A stretch of DNA of 44,060 bases from Marinilabiliales bacterium (GTDB lineage: Bacteria > Bacteroidota > Bacteroidia > Bacteroidales > BM520). Below the pieces are notes generated by a model. The model made no database searches and was not told where the DNA came from. It saw only the letters and a program-made list of their open reading frames with translations. A program made the translations under genes and the position numbers. Positions within the stretch are counted from its first letter, which is position 1. Each line of letters begins with the position of its first letter. The stretch covers positions 1-44,060 of the forward strand of contig PKSY01000311.1 in assembly GCA_002869405.1 (NCBI GenBank). The letters are read 5' to 3'. Shown piece by piece: positions 8,608 to 12,924 of the stretch.

Positions 8608-9291
8608 ATGAATACAGAGGAAAAACTGCTTGAATTTCTGATGGGATATGTGTCGGTAAACAGACAAAAACGGTTTAATGAAGTAATTCAAAACCGAACC
8701 CGTCATATTACAATGGTGATTGAAAATGTTTTTCAACCTCATAATGCAAGCGCTGTATTGCGCTCCTGCGACTGTTTCGGGATCCAGGATGTACATGTTA
8801 TCGAAAACTATAACTCCTATCAGGTGAACCCTAATATCGCGCTGGGAGCCTCCAAATGGCTTAACATGTATAAGTACAATGAAAATGAGTATAATACTGT
8901 TGAATGCCTTACTTCTCTGAAAGAAAAAGGATATACACTGGTTGCCACTTCACCTCATAAATACGATTATACTATTTCTGAACTGCCTCTGGATAATAAA
9001 GTTGCGGTAATGCTTGGCACAGAACTTCAGGGTCTGACAGATCAGGCGTTTGAAATGGCCGACTGTATAGTAAACATTCCAATGTTCGGTTTTACCGAAA
9101 GTTTTAATATCAGTGTTTCTGCTGCTCTGATTATGTATGAACTTACAAAACGACTACATGAATCTGATATTAACTGGCAACTTACTAAAGAAGAAAAACT
9201 GCAGGTAATGCTCGACTGGGCAAGAAATGCAGTGAAAAAATCAGATGCCATTGAAAAGGCATTCCGACGTCGGAATACAGAAGATTCTTAA
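8608..9291 (+). CDS. trmH: tRNA (guanosine-2'-O)-methyltransferase, SpoU/TrmH family
   Basis: This 227-residue SPOUT methyltransferase has all three family motifs: motif 1 VIENVFQPHNASAVLRSCDCFG (catalytic Arg after the Asn), motif 2 VAVMLGTELQGLTDQAFE, and motif 3 IPMFGFTESFNISVSAAL. The length and the C-terminal helix match TrmH, which methylates G18 in the D-loop of tRNAs with S-adenosylmethionine, more closely than the longer 23S rRNA enzyme RlmB. It follows the HU terminator and has no obvious promoter, so read-through or a weak promoter inside the hairpin region is possible. Confidence 0.85.
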   Translation: MNTEEKLLEFLMGYVSVNRQKRFNEVIQNRTRHITMVIENVFQPHNASAVLRSCDCFGIQDVHVIENYNSYQVNPNIALGASKWLNMYKYNENEYNTVECLTSLKEKGYTLVATSPHKYDYTISELPLDNKVAVMLGTELQGLTDQAFEMADCIVNIPMFGFTESFNISVSAALIMYELTKRLHESDINWQLTKEEKLQVMLDWARNAVKKSDAIEKAFRRRNTEDS

Positions 9292-9533: not shown

Positions 9534-10898
9534 CTATTTTGTAAAACCGTTAATGGTTGAAACCAATTCCTTAAAGTGTTCGCCACGTTCTTCAAAGTTT
9601 TTATATCGGTCGTAGCTGGATGCTGCAGGGGAGAGCAGGCAAACTCCCTGCACAGAATCTGATTCAGTAATAAAGGAAATACACTCATTCATACTATTGC
9701 ACGTGATAATCCGTGTTTCGGTAATTCCTGCGGATAATGCCAATTCGCTTATTTTTTTTCCCGCTGCACCGGTAGCCAAAGCTGTGATTTGCTGCCGCTC
9801 TTTCAGATATTCCACAAGTTGACTATAATCTATTCCACGGTCGTAGCCTCCCAAAATAATATATTGAACGTTTTCAAGTGCCTCCATTGCAGCTATTGCA
9901 GCTTCGGGTACTGTAGAAATTGAATCATTATAGAAAATCAGGTCATTAACTTTGCCCACATATTCCAATCGATGCTGTAAAGGGGTGAAGGTCACAAGTG
10001 CCCCGGAAGCCTGCCCTGGTGTGACTCCGCCAATAACAGCAGCAGTTACTGCCGCTGCAATGTTTATGAGGTTATGCGATCCTTTCAGTGTGCAGGAAGG
10101 ATTTTGCAGATGAAAGCCCGGGCCAATAATCTCTTCTTTGGAAAAATAGATCTCTGCACTGCGACTAGTTGATGAAATCCCAACAGCCGTTACTCCGGAT
10201 ACAGATTTTTCACACCTTTTTAATATTGGATCATCTGCATAATAAATATAGGTATCTCCTGCAGCTTGCCGATAGCAAAAATTCAGCTTTGCGTTTTTGT
10301 ATTTGGAGAAATCACCAAAATGATCCAGATGCTCCTGGAATATATTTAATAATATCATTGTTGACGGGGCACGACTGAGGATTTCCCCCTGATGTGCCGA
10401 TAGCTCCATAATAATTTCAGTGTCAGAAGTTATTTGACTTATAAGGTCAAACACCGGAATACCAATATTTCCGGCCAACAGAACTTTTCTTCCTGATTCT
10501 TTATAAAGATGATATAGAAGTGATGCTGTTGTACTTTTCCCTTTTGTTCCTGAAACTCCTGTGGTCTGATGGAAATACTGCTGCAGGAAAAGATCAGTTT
10601 GTGAAGTAAGTACCGTTTTTGATACTTTATTCAATTTACGCAACGGAATTCCCGGAGTCTTTATAATTAAATCAAATACCTCAAGATTCATAAAGCAGTC
10701 ATCTCCGGTATGAAAAACGATATTATTGTCCCTGATGAATTCATTATAACCTGTGATTTCGGGATTCTCATCCGCGATATGAATCAATTTTTCCGGAAAC
10801 AGGTGGCGAAAATAGCTATATGTGCTTTTTCCCTCGCGTCCACAGCCAAGGATAAGTATTTGACTATGTGATGATAGAATATCTGCTATTATGGTCAT
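9534..10898 (-). CDS. murD2: Mur ligase, probable UDP-MurNAc-L-Ala--L-Glu ligase (MurD2 type)
   Basis: This 454-residue Mur ligase has an N-terminal Rossmann-like domain (ILILGCGREGKSTYSYF), the ATP loop VSGTKGKSTT (residues 115-124), the central motif MELSAHQGEIL/LLNIFQEHLDHFGDFSKYKNAK, and a C-terminal domain with TPLQHRLEYVG and YDRGIDY. It resembles MurD, which adds D-Glu to UDP-MurNAc-L-Ala. The GTKGKST loop, ELSAHQ in place of the ELSSFQ I expect in MurD, and its coupling to the epimerase gene upstream suggest the MurD2 variant that adds L-Glu instead. The two genes overlap by four bases. If the MurL call is wrong, this would simply be a divergent MurD. Cytoplasmic. Confidence 0.75.
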   Translation of the reverse strand: MTIIADILSSHSQILILGCGREGKSTYSYFRHLFPEKLIHIADENPEITGYNEFIRDNNIVFHTGDDCFMNLEVFDLIIKTPGIPLRKLNKVSKTVLTSQTDLFLQQYFHQTTGVSGTKGKSTTASLLYHLYKESGRKVLLAGNIGIPVFDLISQITSDTEIIMELSAHQGEILSRAPSTMILLNIFQEHLDHFGDFSKYKNAKLNFCYRQAAGDTYIYYADDPILKRCEKSVSGVTAVGISSTSRSAEIYFSKEEIIGPGFHLQNPSCTLKGSHNLINIAAAVTAAVIGGVTPGQASGALVTFTPLQHRLEYVGKVNDLIFYNDSISTVPEAAIAAMEALENVQYIILGGYDRGIDYSQLVEYLKERQQITALATGAAGKKISELALSAGITETRIITCNSMNECISFITESDSVQGVCLLSPAASSYDRYKNFEERGEHFKELVSTINGFTK

Positions 10899-12244
10899 CT
10901 GACTGCCTTTTTAAGTATATCGAATTCCTCCAATGACAAGTTGTGATTTTTATCAAAAGTATCCAAAACATCGCTTAACGCAGAGGTGACAGAGATTATT
11001 TTTTTATCAATCAAGTCGAGCACTACTGGAAGATCAGTCTCTTTGTAATTATTAATTATGTATCGCAAGGCAAAGGTTACCTCTTCAGCAGTCCCCACAC
11101 ACTCAAATGGTTTTGCCGGCCACAGACCTGCAAGTTCTTCAGTGGTTTTTACAAGTCCGGAGTCCTTAAAAAGATTCTTATTGAAGATTTTGGTTACATC
11201 TTCTTCAGGTAAAAACAGCGACAGCATTATTGCTGTAAACATACACTTCGGGCATTTACCGCACCAGGAATTTGTTTTGCTGCCCACATTGCAACTCCTG
11301 AATTCTGCATGATGATGCTTTAGCTGTGAAAAGATCTTTGCAATCTGGACTTCTGACAAAGGTCTCAACATGCTGAAATACCGAAGGTCTTCAGTGATAT
11401 AACTCTTTACATAGCCTCTGAAGTCGTTTTCAAATTCCAGACTTTTGCTGTACTGGTGGTTAACATGACTTCCGTGCACTGTGCTTTCATTTGCGCTTGA
11501 CTCATTGGAAAGAGCAATGTTCTTTCTGCCTGCAAAAAGTGCTGCCGGCAATGATGTGAACGCGAGTAAAGCAGAGAACGGAGTGTGTCCGTTTAAAAAT
11601 CCTTCATCATTGAGTTTAAGCATCAATGGATCCAGCCGGCGTGTGACAAGAGCACTGTTGTGTTTATCAAAACCTGCTGCTGCAATGGTGCCGGTTTGCG
11701 CTTCCCGGGGATTTATAATAAAAGGTGTGGCATTTTTATGTTTCAATAATTCCAGGGTTACAACAGAATCTTTTCCTCCGCCTACAGGAATGAGATATCC
11801 TGAACCATCTGAAATTTTACCCTTTTGATATCGTTCTCCGGAACTTTGGAAGATAACGAAATCATCTGCATCAGCAGCTATACCGTTAATATAAAAGAAC
11901 TCTCCCAGACCATTGAACATGAGTTTCTTCCACCATTCTTTCTGATTAACTGATATTTCACCACAACGAATATTTATTATCGGTGCACATGTGATTTTCC
12001 AGTAACTAATCATCTCCACTAAACCAATATGGAATATCATGTTTTTAAGCAGATCCGCAGGAATTGAATCCGTGATATCTTTAGGTGTATGGAATGTCAG
12101 GGAAGGAGAAAAGAAAAAATGCTCAGCAATGTTAAATTGGTAAATTACAGTTAAATCTTCGGGCGTTTTTTGTATGTCGAAGCCACTAAATGTGAATACG
12201 GGGTACTGATTTCTCAGATCTGTATAATGTTGATTATTATTCAT
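10895..12244 (-). CDS. murL: Probable UDP-MurNAc-L-Ala-L-Glu epimerase (MurL)
   Basis: This 449-residue protein matches the MurL features I remember from Xanthomonas, where it epimerises the terminal L-Glu of UDP-MurNAc-L-Ala-L-Glu to D-Glu using ATP. Visible motifs are FNGLGEFFYINGI (110-122), a PP-loop-like ATP site PVGGGKDS (153-160), LNGHTPFSALLAF (217-229), ALSNESSANES (244-254), VNHQYSKSLEFE (261-272), a cysteine cluster C318/C328/C331/C334 (SCN...WCGKCPKC), and KPFECVGTAEE. Its stop overlaps the murD2 start (ATGA), which strongly ties the two functions. It replaces glutamate racemase plus standard MurD in D-Glu supply. A -7 box lies about 35 bases before its start. A generic ATP-pyrophosphatase is the alternative. 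Confidence 0.8.
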   Translation of the reverse strand: MNNNQHYTDLRNQYPVFTFSGFDIQKTPEDLTVIYQFNIAEHFFFSPSLTFHTPKDITDSIPADLLKNMIFHIGLVEMISYWKITCAPIINIRCGEISVNQKEWWKKLMFNGLGEFFYINGIAADADDFVIFQSSGERYQKGKISDGSGYLIPVGGGKDSVVTLELLKHKNATPFIINPREAQTGTIAAAGFDKHNSALVTRRLDPLMLKLNDEGFLNGHTPFSALLAFTSLPAALFAGRKNIALSNESSANESTVHGSHVNHQYSKSLEFENDFRGYVKSYITEDLRYFSMLRPLSEVQIAKIFSQLKHHHAEFRSCNVGSKTNSWCGKCPKCMFTAIMLSLFLPEEDVTKIFNKNLFKDSGLVKTTEELAGLWPAKPFECVGTAEEVTFALRYIINNYKETDLPVVLDLIDKKIISVTSALSDVLDTFDKNHNLSLEEFDILKKAVR

Positions 12245-12357: not shown

Positions 12358-12924
12358 ATGGTCGATAAGGAATTAATCATACCTGCAGCAGGAAGGATTT
12401 TAATCTCAAAGCCTTCACTTGATGATTTTTATTTCGGCAGGTCTGTGGTATTACTTGCTGAACATAATGAGGAAGGATCCTTCGGAATTATCGTCAATAA
12501 ACCAATGAAAATAGGACTCCGGGATGCTATTGAAGGTTTTCGGGATTTTAATCCACCCCTGTTTTTTGGAGGGCCTGTGGAGACTGACACCATGTTTTTT
12601 ATTCACAGTCTTGGATTTGCTGTTCCCGGGGCGCAAAAGATTCGTGAAGGCTTATTCTGGGGTGGTGACCCGGATAAAATTCGTGAAATGGTTATCCTTA
12701 ACCAAATACGGCCGGAGGAGATTCGTTTTTTTCTGGGCTATTCCGGTTGGTCTGCCAAACAATTGGATCAGGAGATAAACCAGGATTCATGGATTGTGTC
12801 AGAAGCCCGTAGTGAACAGATATTCAAAATGAAGCCGGAAGATATGTGGAGCTCATCAATGAAAAGCCTGGGAAAGGATTACGCCATCTGGGCTAACCTT
12901 CCGTCTGATCCGGAGCTGAACTAA
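12358..12924 (+). CDS. YqgE/AlgH family protein (UPF0301)
   Basis: This 188-residue protein has the family signature: an N-terminal GRILISKPSLDDFYFGRSVVLL, then HNEEGSFGIIVNKPM, FFGGPVETDTMFFIHS, and the C-terminal FFLGYSGWSAKQLDQEI (GYxGWxxGQLexEi in the family). Structures of relatives exist, but no biochemical function is firmly established; AlgH was first named as an alginate regulator in Pseudomonas. It is cytosolic with no signal peptide. It precedes ispH with a separate promoter between them. Confidence 0.9.
   Translation: MVDKELIIPAAGRILISKPSLDDFYFGRSVVLLAEHNEEGSFGIIVNKPMKIGLRDAIEGFRDFNPPLFFGGPVETDTMFFIHSLGFAVPGAQKIREGLFWGGDPDKIREMVILNQIRPEEIRFFLGYSGWSAKQLDQEINQDSWIVSEARSEQIFKMKPEDMWSSSMKSLGKDYAIWANLPSDPELN

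Follow-up and report, generated by a model that had tools for sequence, protein, structure and literature searches.

The window analysed here, a stretch of 44,060 nucleotides from a Marinilabiliales bacterium, carries a gene pair that very probably forms a working MurD2-MurL module, one that replaced glutamate racemase about once and did not at first replace MurD. By analogy with the Xanthomonas, Micromonospora and Salinispora enzymes, L-glutamate would be attached first and then flipped to D-glutamate within the cell-wall precursor. The module would have taken the place of the racemase early in a large Bacteroidales clade; canonical murD would at first have stayed in the dcw cluster, remaining complete in some lineages (that of the window included) and being repeatedly trimmed, in others, to nothing but the C-terminal domain. 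No complete MurD-type ligase other than MurD2 was found in the latter, which therefore probably rely on the new route alone.

The MurL and MurD2 homologues of the window

The features of the pair, along with related ORFs discussed below, are collected in Table 1. The motifs by which an earlier note on this DNA had recognised a MurL-MurD2 pair all occur in the ORF translations: GGGKDS (residues 155-160), NGLGEF (111-116) and WCGKCPKC (327-334) in MurL, GTKGKST (117-123) and ELSAHQ (165-170) in MurD2; the ORFs, both on the minus strand, lie at the coordinates given there and share the four-base overlap. Sequence matches, the specificity residues, the order of the genes and the MurD2 tree all support the identification. 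The pair is flanked at 8608-9291 by a gene for a SpoU-type methylase and at 12358-12924 by a yqgE-like gene, both named here by sequence recognition.

Table 1. Coordinates of the gene pair, its motifs and specificity residues (window positions), and of fused or shortened relatives (locus:positions)
Feature	Position	Strand	Remarks
murL homologue	10895..12244	-	449 aa, upstream gene of pair; NF041275 match
murD2 homologue	9534..10898	-	454 aa, downstream gene of pair; TIGR01087 match
murL stop / murD2 start overlap	10895..10898	-	4 bases; ORF coordinates
MurL GGGKDS motif	11765..11782	-	strand-loop-helix junction, PP-loop-like; motif, model secondary structure, invariant in A1
MurL WCGKCPKC cysteine motif	11243..11266	-	three cysteines shared with homologues in X. 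sacchari and Pseudonocardia
MurD2 Glu189	10332..10334	-	E. coli Asp182, X. oryzae MurD2 Glu197; alignment, mutagenesis in PMC8788868
MurD2 Ile327	9918..9920	-	E. coli Lys319; alignment, K319T in PMC8788868
MurD2 Arg354	9837..9839	-	E. coli Lys348, X. oryzae MurD2 Arg358; alignment, PMC8788868
Fused MurL-MurD2 ORF	L031:205-2835	-	
Fused MurL-MurD2 ORF	L035:82-2895	-	
Fused MurL-MurD2 ORF	L089:3986-6652	+	
Fused MurL-MurD2 ORF	L108:3947-6709	+	
Stand-alone MurD C-domain ORF	L160:2919-3467	-	example of 21
Stand-alone MurD C-domain ORF	L167:325-873	+	example of 21
Stand-alone MurD C-domain ORF	L169:2087-2635	-	example of 21
Stand-alone MurD C-domain ORF	L172:2929-3477	-	example of 21
Stand-alone MurD C-domain ORF	L177:2927-3475	-	example of 21

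Regarding gene order, 132 related loci were compared. MurD2 lies immediately 3' of MurL in 115, and the ORFs of these adjacent pairs overlap in 95 cases, by exactly 4 bases in 24; in four further loci the two proteins form one ORF of 876-937 aa. The 13 loci scored as non-adjacent include one (G110) where MurD2 becomes adjacent if its start is set further upstream.

As for MurL, the window protein matches the NCBIfam MurL model NF041275 over residues 13-397 with 222 bits (E 8.8e-66); this is far below the cut-off of 700 bits, which was built for Xanthomonadales orthologues and is reached by no Bacteroidales member of the survey. By sequence, the protein is a homologue of NF041275 that falls outside that narrow NCBI model. 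It is 33% identical over 325 aa to the MurL of X. sacchari (itself annotated by homology), and 57 of the 74 columns invariant across Bacteroidales MurL are identical in the latter protein. Sequence searches gave neither a Pfam domain above cut-off nor a relative in the PDB. The AlphaFold2 model (pLDDT 91.8) places GGGKDS where a strand is followed by a helix, the arrangement of PP-loop ATP pyrophosphatases; Foldseek returned no significant solved relative for this model (best E 0.014), and TtuA, NMN synthetase and TrmU were among its top matches, all non-significant. The motif and its setting suggest that GGGKDS is the ATP pyrophosphatase (adenylating) site of MurL; adenylation of the alpha-carboxylate, as proposed for MurL in PMC8788868, is plausible for the window protein too, being compatible with both motif and model.

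MurD2 of the window scored 302 bits against the murD model TIGR01087 (cut-off 212), and its likely substrate can be read from three positions. In X. oryzae MurD2, E197 and R358 (D182 and K348 in E. coli MurD) determine the choice of L-Glu, and the K319T mutant of the E. coli enzyme accepts L-Glu (PMC8788868). In an alignment with E. coli MurD, positions 182/319/348 are occupied by E/I/R in the window protein, the E and R being those of X. oryzae MurD2. The same triple occurs in 119 of 121 MurD2-like proteins (D/I/R in the other two), whereas D/K/K is found in all 65 canonical MurDs examined from the Bacteroidales order (64, with the window genome's own) and E. coli; catalytic residues are retained in both kinds of protein. 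Two of ten canonical MurDs from other organisms deviate (A/K/R in Bacillus, N/I/K in Pusillibacter), and it is the triple that is diagnostic in these sequences for MurD2 versus MurD, not the individual positions. Finally, in a tree of 34 rows with X. sacchari as the sole non-Bacteroidales MurD2, the Bacteroidales and X. sacchari MurD2 proteins split from the canonical MurDs of several phyla with a support of 99/96. A chance or motif-only likeness of the pair is ruled out by the family matches, the MurD2 tree and the shared invariant residues of MurL.

Glutamate racemase and canonical MurD in Bacteroidales

The earlier note had expected the pair to act instead of glutamate racemase plus MurD, and it named a standard murD and murI elsewhere in the genome as evidence against that reading; murD was found, murI was not. 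A TIGR00067 profile search of the window genome (G000) gave no MurI match above cut-off, the lone weak match (35 bits) being a 228-aa protein of the asp/glu-racemase family, and the nearest protein to a D-amino-acid transaminase, the class IV aminotransferase L013, scored 95 bits versus a cut-off of 277. The same genome has a second, full-length MurD (L010:7982-9316; 406 bits against TIGR01087) with D/K/K, located in a dcw cluster of the order pbp-murE-mraY-murD-ftsW-murG-murC. The racemase part of the expectation is upheld; the MurD part is incorrect for the window genome, which by sequence holds a D-Glu-type and an L-Glu-type MurD without MurI; absence of canonical MurD was an assumption of the earlier note and is not established as a defining trait of the published pathway. 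In all three stretches compared, full-length MurD is conserved in MurL genomes about as well as in MurI genomes, which suggests that it is probably still used in the former; the intact MurD of the window genome may draw on salvaged D-Glu or on the product of a promiscuous racemase.

Of 149 Bacteroidales genomes, 54 have MurL, 89 have a MurI that passes the cut-off, six have neither and none has both (Fisher 3e-34, kinship ignored). That murI is only missing from the draft assembly, the module being redundant, is a notion which the state of the window genome (348 contigs, 96.55% complete) leaves room for; it is scarcely credible, given that none of the 54 MurL genomes, many with a completeness of 95% or more, has MurI above cut-off and that 89 of the remaining 95 do. 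In the tree of dcw MurD the MurL genomes form one group (100/96), in which two genomes without intact MurL, G075 and G015, are nested. Since the MurL carriers are essentially one clade, the mutual exclusion should be counted as about one event in evolution and not 54, and these data point to a racemase replaced about once in the order, by a module stably kept thereafter.

No clear MurL was found outside the order among about 293 Bacteroidota genomes; two very weak matches there (about 20 bits, 60-75 residues) were read as unrelated. A scan of GTDB contigs yielded at least 572 confirmed relatives, the best 80 of which are titled Bacteroidota MAGs, mostly Bacteroidales, except for one Clostridia and one "uncultured bacterium". 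As for the horizontal spread suggested in the earlier note, MurD2 shares a deep branch with Xanthomonas MurD2 and MurL is found in essentially one Bacteroidales clade; a recent spread fits this less well than one ancient acquisition that was then inherited vertically.

Canonical MurD could instead be the main ligase, fed with D-Glu by an enzyme other than MurI (of the asp/glu-racemase family, a class IV aminotransferase or a DapF-like protein), with MurD2-MurL as a backup or recycling route. The intact D/K/K MurD under selection, the presence of an asp/glu-racemase family protein and of L013 in the window genome, the production of D-Glu without MurI through DapF in Chlamydia (PMC5885031), and the survival of G075 without intact MurL or recognised MurI all speak for it. 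We nevertheless consider it unlikely, because 21 MurL genomes have no complete canonical MurD and the flux there must run through the module; furthermore, homologues of L013 also occur in MurI genomes and are missing from most MurL genomes, and only roughly one MurL genome in five has a weak asp/glu-racemase match, such matches being present in MurI genomes too. A D-amino-acid transaminase as the replacement source of D-Glu was rejected, as the L013 homologues show no link to MurL genomes, and so was the asp/glu-racemase family as a universal source, its members being patchy in both groups of genomes and not tracking with full MurD.

In G075, a MurL remnant (L251:1351-1548, minus strand) lies at the same SpoU-methylase/yqgE site as the window pair. 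MurD2 is gone from this site, the full canonical MurD is kept and no MurI was found, which implies that the module is dispensable in G075 and that both routes can be lost within the clade.

The C-terminal domain of MurD between mraY and ftsW

The mraY-ftsW interval could be scored in 51 MurL genomes: it holds a short ORF in 21, and a full-length murD in the remaining ones (26 complete, 4 split at contig ends). The short ORFs encode 176-187 aa (182 aa in 12 genomes, one of them 184) and match the full protein from residue 263 to residue 444, with the same starting methionine. None of the 20 MurI genomes checked has a truncated murD, all of them having full MurD (p = 0.0003, kinship ignored). 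A contig break is ruled out as the cause, with mraY and ftsW flanking the ORF on one contig, and most short ORFs start less than 100 bases past the mraY stop, so that the N-terminal and central domains are truly lost.

Whether these ORFs are meaningless, decaying pseudogenes was weighed. Divergent copies in G071, G015 and G120 do lack the active-site motifs, K348 and S415 being absent from divergent copies, while many short MurDs retain NDSKATN and SPACASFD. Decay is nonetheless improbable: in two close pairs dN is low (0.18-0.28, similar to or somewhat above that of ftsW and murG) against a saturated dS and the ORFs are intact, which indicates purifying selection and makes a plain pseudogene unlikely; length and start are equal in many families; residues 45-182 are modelled confidently as MurD domain 3, the first 44 having low confidence; and a short ORF is kept at the mraY-ftsW site in every scorable MurL genome without full MurD. 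A ligase would be unworkable without the UDP- and ATP-binding domains, so we infer a non-ligase role for the short protein. A full-text literature search, with most subscription papers outside its scope, returned no report of a stand-alone MurD C-terminal domain.

As for the history of the truncation, a single truncated clade is compatible with the short C-terminal alignment (p 0.25), and is rejected (p = 0.00065) with the FtsW+MurG+MraY alignment, used as a proxy for the species tree. The latter tree needs 11 changes between full and short murD, at least five of them forced, and it places two genomes of one genus, G034 with short and G148 with full murD, as sisters at 100 SH-aLRT. Truncation apparently arose more than once, although regain or recombination of full murD would yield the same tree pattern. 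The residue at which the short ORFs start is also methionine in most full MurDs, namely in 24 of 26 from MurL genomes and in 21 of 25 from the comparison set (MurI genomes and five genomes with neither gene), a conservation that allows for an internal start. We tentatively propose that the dcw MurD of this Bacteroidales clade has a second, non-ligase role in its C-terminal domain; after MurD2-MurL took over, the first ~262 residues could have been repeatedly deleted down to the same internal methionine, the 182-aa remainder being kept between mraY and ftsW, and full murD genes, those of MurI genomes too, may already make the short form.

Finally, the 98% complete genome G015 carries a divergent MurD C-domain ORF (L201:247-819, plus strand); MurL, MurI, MurD2 and full MurD are not detectable in it, although it does contain mraY and further members of the Mur-ligase family.

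Relation to known systems

The MurD2-MurL pathway itself is known, from X. oryzae (XOO_1320/XOO_1319) and from homologues in other Gammaproteobacteria, in Alphaproteobacteria and in actinobacteria (PMC8788868). The window pair shares with the Xanthomonas pathway the two genes and their order, the conserved residues of MurL, the E and R specificity positions and the absence of murI; it differs in its Bacteroidota host, in a MurL only 33% identical and in the fusion of some related pairs into one ORF. Moreover, the Bacteroidales MurL genomes keep dcw MurD, whole or as its C-terminal domain (canonical murD was examined on the Bacteroidales side only). With respect to canonical MurD (TIGR01087), the window MurD2 has the same three-domain Mur ligase architecture, catalytic residues and fold family, but it carries E/I/R instead of D/K/K, stands on the opposite side of the 99/96 branch and coexists with a separate canonical MurD. 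Chlamydia likewise has no recognised murI and still requires D-Glu in its stem peptide; its D-Glu comes from DapF, a racemase of free amino acids, and MurL or MurD2 are not described there (PMC5885031).

Bacteroidota are not among the hosts given in the reviews consulted, and the full-text search, whose scope took in neither the primary report of 2017 nor the bulk of subscription papers, found no account of the route in this phylum; the literature searched likewise yielded neither the Bacteroidales spread nor the dual-MurD state nor the MurD C-domain protein. The route, so far listed for a few genera, would thereby reach a broad clade of Bacteroidales (572 loci or more), mostly of uncultured gut and sediment bacteria, with rumen members too, and such gut and rumen carriers bear on inhibitors claimed to be pathogen-specific through MurL/MurD2. 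The clade may also display the stages of a pathway swap, with the racemase lost, the old ligase retained for a time and then trimmed, and the trimmed MurD offers a natural test for a non-catalytic role of a Mur ligase in the division cluster.

MurL-like genes are also present on three Pseudonocardia plasmid records (L048:3884-5284 among them); pPaSha1, the only one of these plasmids examined, has no annotated MurD2 beside its MurL-like gene, and the plasmid genes possibly put the fold to another use. MT836755.1, a record titled "UNVERIFIED: Bacteriophage sp." that is probably a bacterial contig, carries a MurL (L047:3884-5275) with 41% identity to that of the window.
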